Assembly: GCA_003149635.1 (NCBI GenBank)
Contig: QCWI01000002.1
Location: 25,188 to 89,187 of the forward strand
Origin: Fluviicola sp. XM-24bin1
GTDB lineage: Bacteria; Bacteroidota; Bacteroidia; Flavobacteriales_D; Crocinitomicaceae
Length of the DNA stretch: 64,000 nt
Direction of reading: 5' to 3'
Positions 22,272 to 30,436 of the stretch are shown one piece after another. Positions within the stretch are counted from its first letter, which is position 1. The number at the start of each line of letters is the position of its first letter. The translations under genes and the position numbers were made by a program. The notes under the pieces were generated by a model. It saw only the letters and a list, made by a program, of their open reading frames with translations, was not told the origin of the DNA and searched no databases.

Positions 22272-23702
22272 ATGAAAGCATTTAAAATAACCTTGGCACT
22301 TGGAGCACTATTGACGCTCGCTGCCTGTAAGAAAGAAGCAGTCATTAACGGCGGAAGCGGTTTGGATGATTGGACAGACGCAACCCACGGATATAACGCA
22401 ACACCGAATTACGATGTCGTTTTCAATCAGAATGAAGTGATGCGATTGGATTTTGTCATCGAACCAGAATACTGGCAAGCGATGCAAGACGATATCGAAT
22501 CCATTTACGGTGGATCAACTGGAGGCGGCCCTGGAGGCGGTGGCGGATTCAGCGATCAAACACCAATGTACATTCCGGTTCAAATGTTCTTTAACGGAAA
22601 GCAATGGTACGATGTAGGACTTCGATACAAAGGAAATTCCAGCCTATCATTTGCCTATCAATCAGGAAATGGGAAATTGCCTTTGCGCATCAAAACGAAT
22701 CACTTCGAAAATGAAAATCCGAACATCAACGGGCAATCCTTCTATGGATTCCAGCAACTTTCGCTTTCAAGCAACTACAAAGATGATTCGTACTTGCACG
22801 AAAAAATGGCGGCTGATGTCTTCCGTGATTTCGGAGTTCCAGCACCCAAAACAGCGTTCTACAGAATTTACGTCGACTATGGAGATGGCCCGATCTATTT
22901 CGGATTGTACACCATGTGTGAAGTGGTCTTCGATTCTCCGATGTTGAATCGATCTTTCGGAAATACCACCGGAAATGTCTACAAACCAGATGCAGACGGA
23001 GCTTATTTGAACAGCACTTCATTGTCCGCATTCAACGACATGGAATTTCCGTTGAAATCTGGAACGGATTACTCGTACGATGACGCGCGCGAGTTCATTA
23101 ACGCTTTGATTTCCGATACGCGAACAACGGATCCAGCTGCTTGGAGATCGACGTTGGAACAACACATCGACATGGAGTTGTACTTGAAGTATCTCGCGGC
23201 CAATACGACCATTCGAAATTGGGATACTTACGGATTAATGACGCACAATTACTATCTCTACAACAATCCTTCATCGAACAAATTCGTATGGATTCCTTGG
23301 GATAACAACGAAGCATTTACTGACGGCCCTGGAGGCGGAGGTGGAATGGGGGGCGGAATGTCTGCCATGGAGTTTGATTTCTCCAACCTTTCATCTACAC
23401 CAACCGGAGCGAATGGTGATGTCGCATGGCCATTACTCGAATACATCTACGATGATCCAGTGTACAAAGCGCAGTATGATTCGTACATCGATGAGTTCTT
23501 GTTGACAGCATTTAATACTTCAAATTTGACGAATCAAGCGAATTATTACCACAACCTCATTGCTCCTTACGTTACTGGTGCCGATGGGGAAATATCGGGA
23601 TACACCAATATTAGCAGTGCATCCGCATTTAATAGTTCAGTAACTGATTTTGTGAGCTTCATTTCCACTCGATGGACGGAAGCGGATAATTATACGCCTT
23701 AA
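22272..23702 (+). CDS. CotH-like kinase family lipoprotein
   Basis: A 476-aa protein with a lipoprotein signal (MKAFKITLALGALLTLAAC, Cys19). CotH-kinase features follow: YIPVQMFFNGKQWYDVGLRY with KGNSS, LPLRIKTNHF, a DDSYLHEKMAADVFRDFGVP segment, YFGLYTMCEVVF, NVYKPD, and the likely metal-binding FVWIPWDNNEAF. In spores and fungi CotH proteins are atypical secreted kinases or adhesins; what this one modifies is unknown. Two glycine-rich insertions (GGSTGGGPGGGGGF and GPGGGGGMGGGM) flank the core. The start at 22272 keeps the lipoprotein signal at the N-terminus. It follows DUF2490 by 4 nt and is closed by a good terminator. Confidence 0.82.
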   Translation: MKAFKITLALGALLTLAACKKEAVINGGSGLDDWTDATHGYNATPNYDVVFNQNEVMRLDFVIEPEYWQAMQDDIESIYGGSTGGGPGGGGGFSDQTPMYIPVQMFFNGKQWYDVGLRYKGNSSLSFAYQSGNGKLPLRIKTNHFENENPNINGQSFYGFQQLSLSSNYKDDSYLHEKMAADVFRDFGVPAPKTAFYRIYVDYGDGPIYFGLYTMCEVVFDSPMLNRSFGNTTGNVYKPDADGAYLNSTSLSAFNDMEFPLKSGTDYSYDDAREFINALISDTRTTDPAAWRSTLEQHIDMELYLKYLAANTTIRNWDTYGLMTHNYYLYNNPSSNKFVWIPWDNNEAFTDGPGGGGGMGGGMSAMEFDFSNLSSTPTGANGDVAWPLLEYIYDDPVYKAQYDSYIDEFLLTAFNTSNLTNQANYYHNLIAPYVTGADGEISGYTNISSASAFNSSVTDFVSFISTRWTEADNYTP

Positions 23703-23723
23703 TTGGGTTTACATAGATCGACA

Positions 23724-23762
23724 AAACGTCAGTGTGTATGAGTGACACATTGGCGTTTTTTT
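23724..23762 (+). terminator. intrinsic terminator of DUF2490-cotH
   Basis: AAACGTCAGTGTG pairs with CACATTGGCGTTT over 13 positions (two G-U), followed by seven or more Ts. It starts 22 nt after the stop codon. Confidence 0.8.
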
Positions 23763-24053
23763 ATGCCTTTTTGGAATGAACTCTGCCAAAATGGAAGTGA
23801 AAGCTATTTTCATTTTTCACCGATGATTTCTATTATCGATTTCAGTACAGCACTAATTGAAAGAAAATCAGAAAATATTCCTGCTTTTTTATGTGTACGC
23901 ATAATAAGTAGCACCCTTGAATAATTTGATTGAGTATCAATTAGTTACCTTCTCTTCTATTCGCCATAAACCACCTATCTTTTTGATAATCAATTAAGAA
24001 AATATGTTAAAAACGAAATGTGGATGTAATTTTTCGGAGCTTACTGCGTTCTT

Positions 24054-24073
24054 ATAAGTAACCATACGGTTGC
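24054..24073 (+). promoter_or_regulatory. putative upstream activator site, sRNA copy 1
   Basis: The 20-mer contains the dyad AACC-ATAC-GGTT and is repeated with one change in front of copy 2 (24371-24390). It ends 17 nt before the sigma-54-like element. This placement suits an enhancer-binding protein site, though it is closer to the promoter than usual. Confidence 0.45.
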
Positions 24074-24089
24074 CGAATCAGAAAAAAAT

Positions 24090-24105
24090 TGGCACACAAT
24101 TTGAA
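24090..24105 (+). promoter_or_regulatory. sigma-54-like promoter, sRNA copy 1
   Basis: TGGCACACAATTTGAA matches the sigma-54 consensus TGGCACRNNNNTTGCW at every fixed position except C to A in the -12 dinucleotide. GG is at 24091-24092. The expected start is about 24115-24117, exactly where the conserved RNA block begins. Confidence 0.6.
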
Positions 24106-24115
24106 CTGGTATCAG

Positions 24116-24199
24116 CAACTAAGTAGAAGTTAGTTTTCATAAGTAGTAGTAGTTTAGGTTTTGAAAGGGAGAGACGCCAGTCACTCCCTTTCTTCTTTT
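24116..24199 (+). ncRNA. predicted small RNA, copy 1 of 3
   Basis: An ~84-nt unit. It has a 5' hairpin AACTAA/TTAGTT with loop GTAGAAG (24117-24135). A linker rich in GTAG repeats (TTCATAAGTAGTAGTAGTTT, then AGGTTTT) is kept in all copies. The 3' hairpin GAAAGGGAGAGAC/GTCACTCCCTTTC with loop GCCA (one mismatch) is followed by a T-rich tail. There is no plausible open reading frame. The conserved block begins 11 nt after the sigma-54-like element. Function is unknown; a trans-acting regulatory RNA with the linker as pairing region is my inference. Confidence 0.65.
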
Positions 24200-24370
24200 A
24201 TATATACCTCAGTCCTCACTCAACACTTGCACCACACACTGCTCAAAAAGCACTTTTTGAGCCCTTCTTAGTATCATTTTGAACCTATCTTAAACCACTC
24301 ATCACAAAAACACGGTAAAAAAAAAGTTAAAAACAATGCGTACATAATAAAGAGTCCCTACCTTCGTTGT

Positions 24371-24390
24371 ATAAGTAACGATACGGTTGC
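24371..24390 (+). promoter_or_regulatory. putative upstream activator site, sRNA copy 2
   Basis: Nearly identical to 24054-24073 (AACG-ATAC-GGTT in place of AACC-ATAC-GGTT). It ends 18 nt before the sigma-54-like element of copy 2. Copy 3 has no such sequence. Confidence 0.45.
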
Positions 24391-24408
24391 AAAACGCAGT
24401 AATAAAAT

Positions 24409-24424
24409 TGGCACACAATTTGAA
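24409..24424 (+). promoter_or_regulatory. sigma-54-like promoter, sRNA copy 2
   Basis: Identical to the copy 1 element (TGGCAC, then ACAAT, then TTGAA), again exactly 11 nt upstream of the conserved RNA block. Confidence 0.6.
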
Positions 24425-24434
24425 CTGTACCTAG

Positions 24435-24516
24435 CAACTAAGTAGAAGTTAGTTTTCATAAGTAGTAGTAGTTTAGGTTTTGAAAGGAGAGACGCCCGTC
24501 TCTCCTTTCTTCGTTT
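24435..24516 (+). ncRNA. predicted small RNA, copy 2 of 3
   Basis: An ~82-nt unit. The 5' hairpin (24436-24454) and linker are identical to copy 1. The 3' hairpin is GAAAGGAGAGAC/GTCTCTCCTTTC with loop GCCC, a perfect 12-bp stem, followed by a weaker T-rich tail (TTCGTTTG). Compared with copy 1, stem bases have changed on both sides so that pairing is retained. Confidence 0.65.
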
Positions 24517-24520
24517 GTAT

Positions 24521-24550
24521 CCTCACCCCAGCCCTTCCAAAGGGGGAGGA
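24521..24550. repeat. C-rich/G-rich palindromic intergenic repeat
   Basis: A segment with CCTC...CCCTTCC followed by AAAGGGGGAGG that can fold on itself. A related segment lies at 24716-24745. Such C-tract/G-tract palindromes are common intergenic repeats in Bacteroidota genomes. Confidence 0.4.
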
Positions 24551-24608
24551 CTTGGAACGCATCCATCTAACTAACTTAACCTCAACAATATAATGCATGC
24601 ATAATTTT

Positions 24609-24624
24609 TGGCACGGGATTTGAA
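24609..24624 (+). promoter_or_regulatory. sigma-54-like promoter, sRNA copy 3
   Basis: TGGCACGGGATTTGAA keeps TGGCAC and TTGAA while the spacer differs from copies 1 and 2, so selection appears to act on the two boxes. It lies 11 nt upstream of the conserved block. A palindrome ATGCATGCAT (24594-24603) sits just upstream instead of the copy 1/2 activator-like site. Confidence 0.6.
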
Positions 24625-24634
24625 ATACCTATAT

Positions 24635-24714
24635 CAACTAAGTAGAAGTTAGTTTTCATAAGTAGTAGTTTAGGTATTGAACGGGAAGGACGCCAGTCTT
24701 TCCCGTTATTTTTT
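24635..24714 (+). ncRNA. predicted small RNA, copy 3 of 3
   Basis: An ~80-nt unit. The 5' hairpin (24636-24654) is identical; the linker has one GTA fewer. The 3' hairpin is AACGGGAAGGAC/GTCTTTCCCGTT with loop GCCA (12 bp, one G-U), followed by six Ts. The stem sequence is largely different from copies 1 and 2 but equally stable, while loop and linker are kept. This copy has the best terminator tail. Confidence 0.65.
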
Positions 24715-24715
24715 A

Positions 24716-24745
24716 TCCTCTCCCTAGCCCCCTCCAAAAGGGGGA
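24716..24745. repeat. C-rich/G-rich palindromic intergenic repeat
   Basis: TAGCCCCCTCCAAAAGGGGG-type palindrome related to 24521-24550. It lies right after the third small RNA and before the lepA promoter. Confidence 0.4.
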
Positions 24746-24786
24746 ATAAAATATCCCTAACCCATCATGTTCTCGGTATTTTCCTG

Positions 24787-24794
24787 TACTTTTG
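24787..24794 (+). promoter_or_regulatory. -7 promoter element of lepA
   Basis: TACTTTTG is a full match to TAnnTTTG, 31 nt before the lepA ATG. This housekeeping-type element contrasts with the sigma-54-like boxes of the RNAs next to it. Confidence 0.5.
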
Positions 24795-24825
24795 TACGCT
24801 ATATCCACAGCGGAATTAACCCTTT

Positions 24826-26622
24826 ATGAAGAACATTCGTAACTTTTGTATTATCGCACACATCGACCACGGGAAAAGTACCTTGGCCGATCGATTGCTT
24901 CAAACTACCGGAACTATTTCTGAACGTGAAATGCAAGATCAGGCATTGGACGATATGGATCTGGAACGCGAACGTGGGATTACCATCAAGAGTAACGCCA
25001 TTCAGATGGATTACGAACACAATGGCGAAAAGTACGTTCTGAACCTGATCGACACCCCGGGACACGTGGATTTCTCGTACGAAGTGTCGCGATCAATCGC
25101 CGCTTGTGAAGGGGCCTTGCTGATTGTAGATGCCGCTCAAGGAATTGAGGCGCAAACCATTTCGAATTTGTACCTCGCTTTGGAGCACGATCTTGAAATC
25201 ATTCCGATTTTGAATAAAATGGATCTTCCAGGTGCCATGCCAGAGGAGGTTACCGATCAGATTGTGGATTTGATTGGATGTAGTCCAGACGATATTATTC
25301 CGGCTTCCGGAAAAACGGGATTGGGAGTAGATAAGATTTTAGAGGCTGTTGTGGAACGCGTTCCAGCTCCCGAAGGAGATCCAGATGCACCATTGCAAGC
25401 TATGATCTACGATTCAGTCTTCAATTCATACCGTGGAATTATTGCGTATTACCGAGTGAAAAACGGAGTAATTCGCAAAGGAGATAAAGTGAAGTTCTTC
25501 AATACTGGTAAAAGCTATAACGCGGAAGAAATCGGAATCTTGAAATTAGACCTCAGTCCAAAGAACGAAGTTCGCACGGGTGATGTAGGCTACATTATTT
25601 CTGGAATCAAGAAAGCGGCCGAGGTGAAAGTTGGAGATACGATTACTTTGGAAGAGAATCCTTGTGATGAAGCGATCAAAGGTTTCGAGGATGTGAAGCC
25701 AATGGTATTCTCGGGAATTTATCCAGTGGATACAGAGGACTACGAAGAACTCCGTTACTCCATGGAGAAATTGCAATTGAACGATTCTTCCCTGGTTTTC
25801 GAACCGGAATCGTCAGCTGCACTTGGATTCGGTTTCCGATGTGGATTCCTTGGAATGTTGCACATGGAGATCATCCAGGAACGTTTAGAGCGTGAGTTCG
25901 GAATGACGGTTATTACTACCGTTCCCAACGTATCGTACAAGGCGTACATGAAAAAGACGCCGGACGAAGAAATTATCGTAAACAACCCTTCGGAGTTGCC
26001 AGATCCTTCAGGAATGGAAATGATCGAAGAGCCGTATATCAAAGCGCAAGTCATTACAAAGGCTGAATACGTGGGTCAGATTATGACCTTATGTATTGAA
26101 AAGCGAGGTGAATTGACCAATCAGGTGTACTTGACACAGGACCGTGTAGAGCTGAGTTTCGAAATGCCTATGGGAGAAATTGTCTTCGATTTTTATGACC
26201 GTTTGAAAACCGTTTCTCGTGGTTACGCATCTTTCGATTACCATCCAATTGGGTATAAGAAATCGGATCTGATCAAAATGGATCTTTTGCTTAACGGCGA
26301 GCAAGTCGATGCACTTTCAGCTTTGGTTCACCGAAGCAACGCCTTCGAATTGGGGAAAAAGATTTGTATCAAATTGAAGGAATTGATCCCACGTCAGCAA
26401 TTCGAAATTCCAATTCAGGCGGCAATTGGAGCGAAAGTAATCGCCCGTGAAACCATCAAGGCACTACGTAAAGACGTTACCGCAAAATGTTACGGTGGAG
26501 ATATCACGCGTAAGCGTAAACTCCTCGAAAAACAGAAAGCTGGTAAGAAACGTATGCGTCAGGTCGGAAAAGTTGAAATTCCACAAGAAGCATTCTTGGC
26601 TGTTCTGAAATTGAACGACTAA
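24826..26622 (+). CDS. lepA: elongation factor 4 (LepA)
   Basis: A 598-aa translational GTPase that back-translocates or monitors ribosomes. G1 is HIDHGKST (residues 12-19), G2 lies in [13 protein letters not shown]3 is DTPGH near residue 76, and G4 is NKMD near residue 129. EF-G-like domains II, III and V follow. The LepA-specific C-terminal domain contains [40 protein letters not shown] and ends [17 protein letters not shown]. Length is exactly typical. It is monocistronic with its own promoter-like element. Confidence 0.98.
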
Positions 26623-28325: not shown

Positions 28326-28913
28326 ATGAGTCCTAAGAGTAATCTCGAGACCGGAACCAAAACCCGGTTGAGACTAAAAAGAACATTACTATTTGGAGCC
28401 AGTGCACTAGTCATTGGCGCCGTAGTTTGGAAAATCCTCTTTACCACTGTTGCGACGGTGTCCACCACAACGAATGTGCGCGCCATATTTACACCTGGAA
28501 GTGGAGCTGTAATTACTGGTCATACCTGGCAAGGAACCTTGGTAGAAGATCATCCTATCAATCAAATGCTCGCGATGAAAGTCCTAAAGGATTGGAACAT
28601 CGATGTAGCACTTGCGGAAAATGGACGCATCGCGCTCGAAATGGTCGCGAAAGATGACTACGATTTGATTCTCATGGACATCAGCATGCCGGAAATGGAT
28701 GGCTACACTGCAACCAAGGAAATCCGATCGGGAAATCATACGCACGATAAGGACATTCCAATCATCGCTATGACGGCTTCGGCATTGATTGGTGAGAATC
28801 AAAAATGCTTCAAAGCAGGAATGAATGATTACATCACCAAACCATTCGAACCTGAAAATCTAATGGAGAAGATTTACAACAATCTTCGCATCACTCACTT
28901 AAAAAGCGCTTAG
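28326..28913 (+). CDS. receiver domain fused to an unrelated membrane N-terminus
   Basis: A 195-aa protein in two unlike halves. Residues 1-70 hold a basic N-terminus, one membrane helix (about 21-42, TLLFGASALVIGAVVWKILF) and a Thr/Gly-rich stretch of no recognised family. Residues 72-195 are a receiver domain starting LVEDHPINQMLAMKVL, with phospho-acceptor Asp118 in LILMDISMPEMDGY, the AMTASA switch Thr and the KPF lysine. Such receivers normally end a hybrid histidine kinase; here the kinase core is absent. I infer that the N-terminus of one gene has been joined to the C-terminal receiver of a hybrid kinase near 28535-28540, by deletion or misassembly. It is followed 2 nt later by the HPt/AAA+ gene, its likely phosphorelay partner. 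Confidence 0.65.
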   Translation: MSPKSNLETGTKTRLRLKRTLLFGASALVIGAVVWKILFTTVATVSTTTNVRAIFTPGSGAVITGHTWQGTLVEDHPINQMLAMKVLKDWNIDVALAENGRIALEMVAKDDYDLILMDISMPEMDGYTATKEIRSGNHTHDKDIPIIAMTASALIGENQKCFKAGMNDYITKPFEPENLMEKIYNNLRITHLKSA

Positions 28914-28915
28914 TT

Positions 28916-30436
28916 ATGGAAAATACAATAATCAACCTAGACTACCTCCATAAAACGTGCGGAGGATCCGAAGAAATGGTGCAGATGATTATTGATATAT
29001 TCATCTCAACAACACCCGATTGCATGGCGGAATTGGAAACGCATTTCTCAAACGCAGACAGCGAAGAATTGCGGATGGTGGCTCACAAAGTGAAATCTTC
29101 CTTTCTCACCATCGGAGCAAAATCTGCGGGTGAGAAACTTCAGCAAATTGAAGATGCCGCAAAAGATTCTGACATCAGTCATCTCGGTCCTATCATTCAA
29201 CAAGTAATAAACGAATCGGATGCGATCATTCAGGAATTGCATCACAAAAACAACGCGGTTATGAAAACAAACATCCTCAAAATATTTATCGTAGAAGACG
29301 ATCCTTTCTATGGCGAAGTAGTGCAGCAGCAACTTCAAACTTTGGAGAACGTCGAAGTCACCCGATTTCAAACAGCCGATGAATTCGCATCTGCAAAAGA
29401 TCTCAATCCTGATGTGGTAGTCTTTGATTACGACATGCCGGTTCGCAATGGACTTCAACTTTTGGAAGAAGTGAAAAAGATAAATGACGATACATTCGTA
29501 GTAATGTTATCGGGTCAAATGGAATTGAATATAGTAGTAGATGCTTACAACAAAGGCGCCGATAAATACATCATCAAAGATGAAAAGGCCTTGGTTGAGC
29601 TTCGGCAGATCATCGAAAACTTCCGAAAAGTGTTCAACACGCGGAATGAACTGGATCATCTGAAAGATCGACTCATCGACATCAACCGCTATGAGAATCT
29701 CATCGGCGAAAGTTTGGTGATGAAAGAAATGTTCCACTTGATGGAAAAAGTGGAGAACATAAACATTCCTGTATTGATCACTGGCTCCAACGGAACCGGA
29801 AAAGAATTGGTGGCCAATGCGCTGCATTACAATTCCTCGCGAAAACAACGACAGTTCGTTGCGCTCAATGTTGCGGCAATTCCAGAAGATTTAATCGAAA
29901 GTGAATTATTCGGAGCCGAAAAAGGTGCATTTACACGTTACGGCAAGTTCGAAGAAGCCAATGGAGGAAGCATTTTCCTAGATGAAATTGGCGAAATGCC
30001 TTACCGTGTGCAAGCCAAATTACTGCGTGTGCTTAAGGAAAACAAAGTGACACGTCTCGGTGGTAAAAAAGAAATCAATTTGGACATCAAAGTGATGTCC
30101 GCCACGAACAAAGACCTTTGGAAAGAAGTGGAAGCGGGACGATTTCGGGAAGATTTATACTTCCGATTGCAAGGCTTCATTATTCGCATTCCCGACCTCA
30201 AAGACCGTGGCAACGATGTGATTCACTTGGCCAAGCACTTCGCTTCGGAATTCTGCAAACGTCAAGGATTGCCTGAAAAGCAATTCGAAGTGGACGCATT
30301 CAAGGCAATGATTGATTACCGCTGGCCAGGAAATGTCCGTGAATTGAAATCAATGGTGGAACACGCAGTTTTGATTAGCAATCAACCGAAAATAACGTCA
30401 GAGAACCTCGTGTTCCTGGAAAAACATATTGCCTAG
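28916..30436 (+). CDS. HPt-receiver-sigma54 AAA+ protein without GAFTGA or DNA-binding domain
   Basis: A 506-aa three-part protein. An HPt domain (residues 1-115) has the phospho-His in AHKVKSSF (His57). Next is a receiver beginning MKTNILKIFIVEDDPFYGEV with Asp171 in VVVFDYDMP. Then comes an NtrC-type AAA+ domain with Walker A TGSNGTGKE near 289, ESELFGAEKGAFT, FLDEIGEMP and the sensor WPGNVREL. The sigma-54-contacting loop reads GAFT-RYGKFEEAN instead of GAFTGA-xxRxGKFEEA, so about five residues including GA are missing (residues 337-342). The protein ends after the AAA+ lid with no Fis-type helix-turn-helix. HPt and response regulator are usually separate, and a normal start lies inside (MKTNIL). 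It may be a non-activating regulator or a damaged activator. Confidence 0.8.
   Translation: MENTIINLDYLHKTCGGSEEMVQMIIDIFISTTPDCMAELETHFSNADSEELRMVAHKVKSSFLTIGAKSAGEKLQQIEDAAKDSDISHLGPIIQQVINESDAIIQELHHKNNAVMKTNILKIFIVEDDPFYGEVVQQQLQTLENVEVTRFQTADEFASAKDLNPDVVVFDYDMPVRNGLQLLEEVKKINDDTFVVMLSGQMELNIVVDAYNKGADKYIIKDEKALVELRQIIENFRKVFNTRNELDHLKDRLIDINRYENLIGESLVMKEMFHLMEKVENINIPVLITGSNGTGKELVANALHYNSSRKQRQFVALNVAAIPEDLIESELFGAEKGAFTRYGKFEEANGGSIFLDEIGEMPYRVQAKLLRVLKENKVTRLGGKKEINLDIKVMSATNKDLWKEVEAGRFREDLYFRLQGFIIRIPDLKDRGNDVIHLAKHFASEFCKRQGLPEKQFEVDAFKAMIDYRWPGNVRELKSMVEHAVLISNQPKITSENLVFLEKHIA

Follow-up and report, generated by a model that had tools for sequence, protein, structure and literature searches.

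The window, a 64,000-nucleotide stretch of the Fluviicola sp. XM-24bin1 genome (contig QCWI01000002.1, positions 25,188 to 89,187), contains, in the interval from a CotH-family gene (22275-23702) to lepA (24826-26622), a sequence repeated three times. Each repeat resembles a full transcription unit, composed of a sigma54-type promoter (TTGGCAC-N4-TTTGAA), a predicted transcript start region opening with CAACTAAG, a conserved linker and, 3' of the linker, a GC-rich stem with a T-rich tail behind it; the predicted RNAs are ~80-85 nt long. All three copies share an identical 33-base core, which has 0.00 matches expected from shuffles and exactly three matches in the XM-24bin1 genome at up to three mismatches; a covariance model also returns three. 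The units and their flanking elements are as follows.

24053-24073, plus strand: dyad-like upstream element TATAAGTAACCATACGGTTGC of copy 1, conserved; candidate activator site
24089-24105, plus strand: sigma54-type -24/-12 promoter TTGGCACACAATTTGAA of copy 1, from sequence and the motif survey of copies
24116-24200, plus strand: predicted sRNA of copy 1, start and end inferred, unmapped
24123-24159, plus strand: conserved single-stranded linker of copy 1, the proposed seed
24163-24192, plus strand: terminator stem-loop of copy 1, one mismatch
24370-24390, plus strand: upstream element of copy 2, like TATAAGTAACCATACGGTTGC of copy 1
24408-24424, plus strand: sigma54-type promoter TTGGCACACAATTTGAA of copy 2
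24435-24518, plus strand: predicted sRNA of copy 2
24442-24478, plus strand: conserved linker of copy 2, the proposed seed
24482-24509, plus strand: terminator stem-loop of copy 2
24608-24624, plus strand: sigma54-type promoter TTGGCACGGGATTTGAA of copy 3
24635-24714, plus strand: predicted sRNA of copy 3
24642-24675, plus strand: conserved linker of copy 3, one GTA triplet fewer
24680-24707, plus strand: terminator stem-loop of copy 3
24826-26622, plus strand: lepA (Pfam LepA_C, GTP_EFTU), downstream neighbour outside the sRNA units

Two similar C-rich/G-rich palindromic pieces, CCCCAGCCCTTCCAAAGGGGGA (24526-24548) and CCCTAGCCCCCTCCAAAAGGGGGA (24722-24746), lie downstream of the copy 2 and copy 3 terminators and are, by the pattern used, the only two within the window. 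A weak minus-strand match to the Rfam family whalefall-1 (18.8 bits, cut-off 37) overlaps the second piece.

Terminator helix and conserved linker

The stems at 24163-24192, 24482-24509 and 24680-24707 read as quoted in an earlier note, which had held that their bases change on both arms together while the loop and the upstream linker hardly change, pointing to selection on RNA structure rather than on DNA sequence. They are the Rho-independent (intrinsic) terminators of three predicted sRNA genes, tandem and paralogous. The copy 1 stem, one pair longer than the others, contains one internal A/A mismatch (92% complementary), the copy 2 stem is paired at all positions and the copy 3 stem has one G-U. 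Comparison of copies 2 and 3 reveals four two-sided changes (G-C to A-U, A-U to C-G, A-U to G-C and G-C to A-U) plus a single change confined to one arm. The region 23700-24830 holds five terminator-like sites versus 0.8 +/- 1.0 in shuffles, a list that includes copies 2 and 3 and lacks copy 1, whose absence is attributed to its stem mismatch. All three predicted RNAs fold better than shuffles (z of -3.1, -3.9 and -4.0).

A MAFFT alignment of 50 distinct copies from relatives (A1), in which identical 90-base copies were merged so that 14 loci from named MAG records added no rows, shows the terminator helix paired in 97.8% of cells with two-sided changes in 12 of 13 pairs; the values are 98.2% and again 12 of 13 in an alignment of 34 copies from several genera, mostly other than the home genus (A4), all four figures being inflated by kinship, since the rows are related and the cells are not independent events. 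The whole-structure covariation score of A1, covering the terminator helix and a 6-pair 5' hairpin, was reached by 0 of 500 shuffles, as was the A4 score, and the count of two-sided pairs in A4 was reached by 128 of 500. Sliding the arms out of register removed most of the pairing in both alignments, 54.9-66.4% of cells still pairing in A4, and RNAalifold recovered the same 13-pair terminator helix and nothing more. Stem changes covary in these larger alignments as they do among the three copies, which is as expected of any conserved intrinsic terminator.

The linker is near-invariant across the 50 copies; the loop is constant only roughly, with GCCA, GCCC, GCUA, ACCC, UGGC and others occurring. 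The proposal of selection on structure is borne out by the covarying stem and falls short in its exclusion of sequence: the linker shows strong sequence conservation, so selection does not act on structure alone.

The 5' part of each unit, ~45 nt, is mostly unstructured. Within the linker, the single-stranded stretch GUUAGUUUUCAUAAGUAGUAGU is near-invariant in the 50 copies, and GTAGAAGTTAGTTTTCATAAGTAGTAGTAGTTTAGGT is invariant or nearly so over most of its length, except for the number of GTA triplets (2-4 per copy, with the motif type retained) and, in a few copies, a duplicated TTAGG. The cross-genus core, taken from a chosen set of 34 copies, shrinks to about TTAG[T/G]TTTCATAAGTAGTAGT. 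Reading the stop codons of the linker indicates that it holds no ORF. The units combine a conserved terminator hairpin with an unpaired conserved seed, as do trans-acting sRNAs with intrinsic terminators.

A 5' hairpin, AACUAA/UUAGUU, was considered and rejected: it is paired in 89.3% of A1 cells with one two-sided pair, is absent from the RNAalifold structure and gives way to other weak 5' pairings in single-sequence folds. Loss of its 5' arm in several copies argues that it is not a family feature. Arrays of genus g7 (L090, L091, L095 and L098) contain 3 to 5 copies with a shortened core, GTTAGGTTTCATAAGTAGTAGTGTTA.

Promoters and distribution

Sufficient upstream sequence made 49 of the 50 copies evaluable for promoters. 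The sigma54-type motif TGG[CT]N[CT]-N4-TTTG is present in 39 of the 49, lying exactly 13 nt before AACTAAG in 32 copies, compared with 4 of 10000 mononucleotide-shuffled upstream regions containing the motif. The remaining 10 copies, all of home-genus type, lack it. Outside the genus, a slightly loosened motif precedes 8 of 27 copies from 14 stretches (0 of 16 in g7, 8 of 11 elsewhere). The difference between g7 and the other genera indicates that the promoter type changed inside the family, and the 10/49 and 19/27 copies lacking the motif indicate that sigma54 control is not universal.

The XM-24bin1 genome encodes rpoN and contains 11 Sigma54_activat matches, five of them strong. Sigma54 control of the array in this genome is, judged from sequence, very likely, and the fixed-distance -24/-12 promoter, rpoN and enhancer-binding protein genes in the genome suggest a Qrr-like organisation. 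A gene for a sigma54 activator lies at 28916-30436, ~4 kb away from the array and immediately behind a gene with a receiver domain (28326-28913); Pfam assigns the activator Hpt, receiver and AAA+ domains but detects no DNA-binding domain.

Additional motifs recur in the 49 upstream regions: TGTTAAA in 31 (shuffle mean 2.7), TAAC.ATAC in 17 (shuffle mean 0.1) and, about 20 bases on from TGTTAAA, TGTAAT in 19 (4.3 in shuffles). TGTTAAA and TGTAAT recur upstream of first-in-array copies, sigma54-less ones included, and occur in the window at about 24000-24035 and 24319-24350; several first-in-array copies without a sigma54 element retain a TGTTAAA...TGTAATTTTT block. TGTTAAA and TAAC.ATAC, the latter counted for the dyad-like element at 24053-24073 and 24370-24390, are possibly activator sites or a second promoter, and TGTTAAA with TGTAAT may likewise mark a second promoter.

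A covariance model built from 46 of the 50 A1 copies (R1, from alignment A2) matches 142 of 240 Crocinitomicaceae genomes at E<=0.01, including 92 of the 151 that are >=90% complete and <=5% contaminated, and covers 18 of 24 genera with up to 8 matches per genome; chance may account for the weak matches, for instance those of g22, a genus with E values of about 1e-4 to 0.009. An even draw from the order yielded matches in 71 of 299 genomes. Matches outside the family came from 4/299 genomes, three being weak (E 0.001-0.009) and one strong (G088). The strong match likely reflects mis-binning, as G088 is a 71% complete MAG and the lepA on its contig is about 86% identical to that of the window, like those of family members. 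Taken with the conserved terminator, linker and promoters, this distribution makes it highly likely that the units form a real sRNA family, the tandem paralogous sRNAs of Crocinitomicaceae.

Relation to known sRNAs

An Rfam 15 scan of the window returned no family at gathering score, and hits with E values of 0.04-10, among them L20 leader, BTnc049 and whalefall-1, are dismissed as chance, the FopS alignment excepted. The literature searched contained no paper on an sRNA of Crocinitomicaceae or on this sRNA family. In a permissive scan, FopS (RF04319) aligns collinearly over its full length to copies 1 (16.5 bits, E 7.1) and 2 (15.8 bits, E 9.4), the E values applying to 4227 families and corresponding, by division, to about 0.002 for FopS alone. 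Both aligned copies stay below the gathering score of 56, and an RF04319 scan of the XM-24bin1 genome gave no match at E<=0.001.

For the reverse comparison, an unfiltered search with a model of 83 sequences (R2) covered 55 kb surrounding 18 FopS-model hits, of which 14 pass the Rfam cut-off and 4 do not. Twelve of the model's 14 best matches fall on FopS genes, although these are not independent results, as FopS copies are paralogues; 15 of the 18 loci are touched at E<=10, and the best match (E 0.013) lies on one of the four sub-threshold hits. The part common to FopS and the Crocinitomicaceae units, TTTTCAT-(A)GTA.TAG-..TT.AGGTT, is only partially identical, and among 4000 trials with dinucleotide-shuffled cores between 11 and 347, according to the variant compared, score as high as the FopS alignment. 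The Crocinitomicaceae family appears FopS-like without being a proven member, and common descent is possible.

According to excerpts of PMC11697453, FopS of Bacteroides thetaiotaomicron blocks translation of susC mRNAs by pairing with their start regions, and is bound and counteracted by RbpB. The array units share with FopS/GibS of Bacteroides their nature as multicopy paralogous Bacteroidota sRNAs, and with FopS the placement of a Rho-independent terminator immediately behind a single-stranded 5' seed, as well as complementarity of that seed to AUGAAAA. They differ from FopS in an extra 5' part, AACUAAGUAGAAGUUAG, in their GUAGUAGUAG triplets and in their tandem arrangement, as well as in promoter type, which is sigma54-type here versus sigma-ABfr for FopS (PMC11697453, excerpts).

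Qrr sRNAs occur in multiple copies and, as a point of difference from the array, are Hfq-dependent. In Vibrio they are under the control of sigma54 and an enhancer-binding protein (PMC10162802, excerpts), resembling in working the paralogous sRNAs, sigma54 and, as proposed, enhancer-binding protein of the array; they belong to another phylum and have another seed, and no sequence relation is expected. Rfp36 of Flavobacterium psychrophilum, putatively a regulatory RNA, has a sigma54 (SM4) promoter (PMC9723704, Table 2A) and is like the array units in this promoter type and in having a host of the same order; in the draw of 299 genomes from that order, only four genomes matching R1 lie outside Crocinitomicaceae, three of them with weak matches.

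At about 1500-1570 of L248 (genome G514), which comes from a different family (f16) within the same class, the FopS model scores 43.9 bits, under the cut-off; FopS-like RNAs may be spread more widely than Bacteroidaceae.

Start-site complementarity and proposed mode of action

The seed is complementary to ACUACUACUUAUGAAAA and to start codons of MK... proteins. Four of the five non-self sites in the XM-24bin1 genome (<=2 mismatches) fall exactly at start codons of long ORFs, all four of which look, by eye, like signal-peptide proteins. The 26-base complement of the linker, searched in the same genome at <=3 mismatches, occurs only in sRNA copies 1 and 2. Across 34 genus genomes, near-complement sites show no excess: 138 matches, 51 of them sRNA copies, leave 87 non-self sites versus 107 and 96 for two shuffled patterns.

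Sites were scored as start-like when an ORF of >=60 codons ran from the ATG with <=40 open codons before it. By this measure 47 of 60 sites are start-like, compared with 18 of 40 controls (pooled Fisher p 0.001), the 60 having been selected from the 87 for an intact ATGAAA, with at least 5 more such sites outside the sample and three sRNA self-sites in L083 dropped, and the 40 controls having been hand-picked, ATGAAA intact, from 203. Taken apart, pattern 1 gives 12 of 20 start-like controls (p 0.14, not significant) and pattern 2 gives 6 of 20 (p 0.0002). The start-site evidence is only suggestive.

In the proposed mechanism, an enhancer-binding protein and sigma54-RNA polymerase would switch the array on, and the UUUUCAUAAGUAGUAG stretch of the transcripts would pair with mRNAs at their translation start sites (..AUGAAA..), blocking initiation as published for FopS in Bacteroides (PMC11697453, excerpts); a large share of these mRNAs would encode signal-peptide proteins and lipoproteins. 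Such pairing is the leading guess for the mechanism, at a little below an even chance. In F. psychrophilum, genes for chaperones, gliding and exported proteins lie under sigma54 promoters, as does one putative sRNA, Rfp36 (PMC9723704, excerpts). Given that chaperone and envelope-stress genes are among those driven by sigma54 there, the array may act as a brake on exported-protein synthesis under stress; if sigma54 has a similar role here, we infer that the sRNAs would lower exported-protein synthesis under envelope or folding stress. In Salmonella, sigmaE-dependent sRNAs reportedly act much like such a brake.

The overall reading, in which an sRNA family is controlled by sigma54 and start-site pairing is the leading guess for its action, is probable. 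Sigma54-driven sRNAs (Qrr) and multicopy start-site-blocking sRNAs (FopS) are each known already; their combination was not found in Rfam 15 or in the literature searched. A more far-reaching proposal, which we regard as speculative and rather unlikely, is that FopS and the present family each form a branch of an ancient Bacteroidota start-codon-blocking class (seed UUUUCAU plus GUAxUAG, complementary to AUGAAAA), the Crocinitomicaceae branch having been put under sigma54 and amplified as tandem arrays, a counterpart of the sigmaE/RybB-MicA envelope-protein brake, with another promoter type in g7. With its terminator covariation, near-invariant seed, clear promoter type and presence in many genomes, the family offers a practical entry to post-transcriptional control in Bacteroidota beyond Bacteroides, and would allow one to ask whether the ancestor of the phylum already blocked start codons in the manner of FopS, and whether such sRNAs serve sigma54 in limiting exported proteins.

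The main rival to start-site pairing, an improbable one by our estimate, is that the RNAs mainly titrate an RNA-binding protein, such as an RRM protein, via repeated GUAGUAGUAG/UUAG motifs, with no mRNA pairing. RbpB carries an RRM domain, and two RRM_1 genes are present in the XM-24bin1 genome, at C4:213064 and C11:38474. Binding of FopS by RbpB (PMC11697453, excerpts) fits titration, as do the variable number of GTA triplets (2-4) around a retained motif type and the lack of an excess of complementary sites, whereas the extension of conservation to GUUAGUUUUCAUAAG, outside the triplets, and the more frequent coincidence of complementarity with start codons than in pooled controls favour pairing.

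Two further readings were weighed. The position of lepA, downstream on the same strand at 30 of the 34 loci L048-L081 (mostly genera g1 and g18) and 134-301 bases past the core of the last copy, would suit a cis-acting leader or attenuator of lepA. Against this, 11 of the 14 ten-kb stretches taken from other genera (L088-L101) show no lepA near the array, every unit closes with a terminator and most open with a promoter of their own, and genomes contain up to 8 matches; this reading is rejected as highly improbable. Passive mobile or repetitive DNA with no role of its own, for which tandem arrangement and variable copy number would speak, is very improbable given that the three copies of the XM-24bin1 genome lie at one place only, that the neighbourhood and the promoter spacing are conserved and that the stem changes are compensatory.
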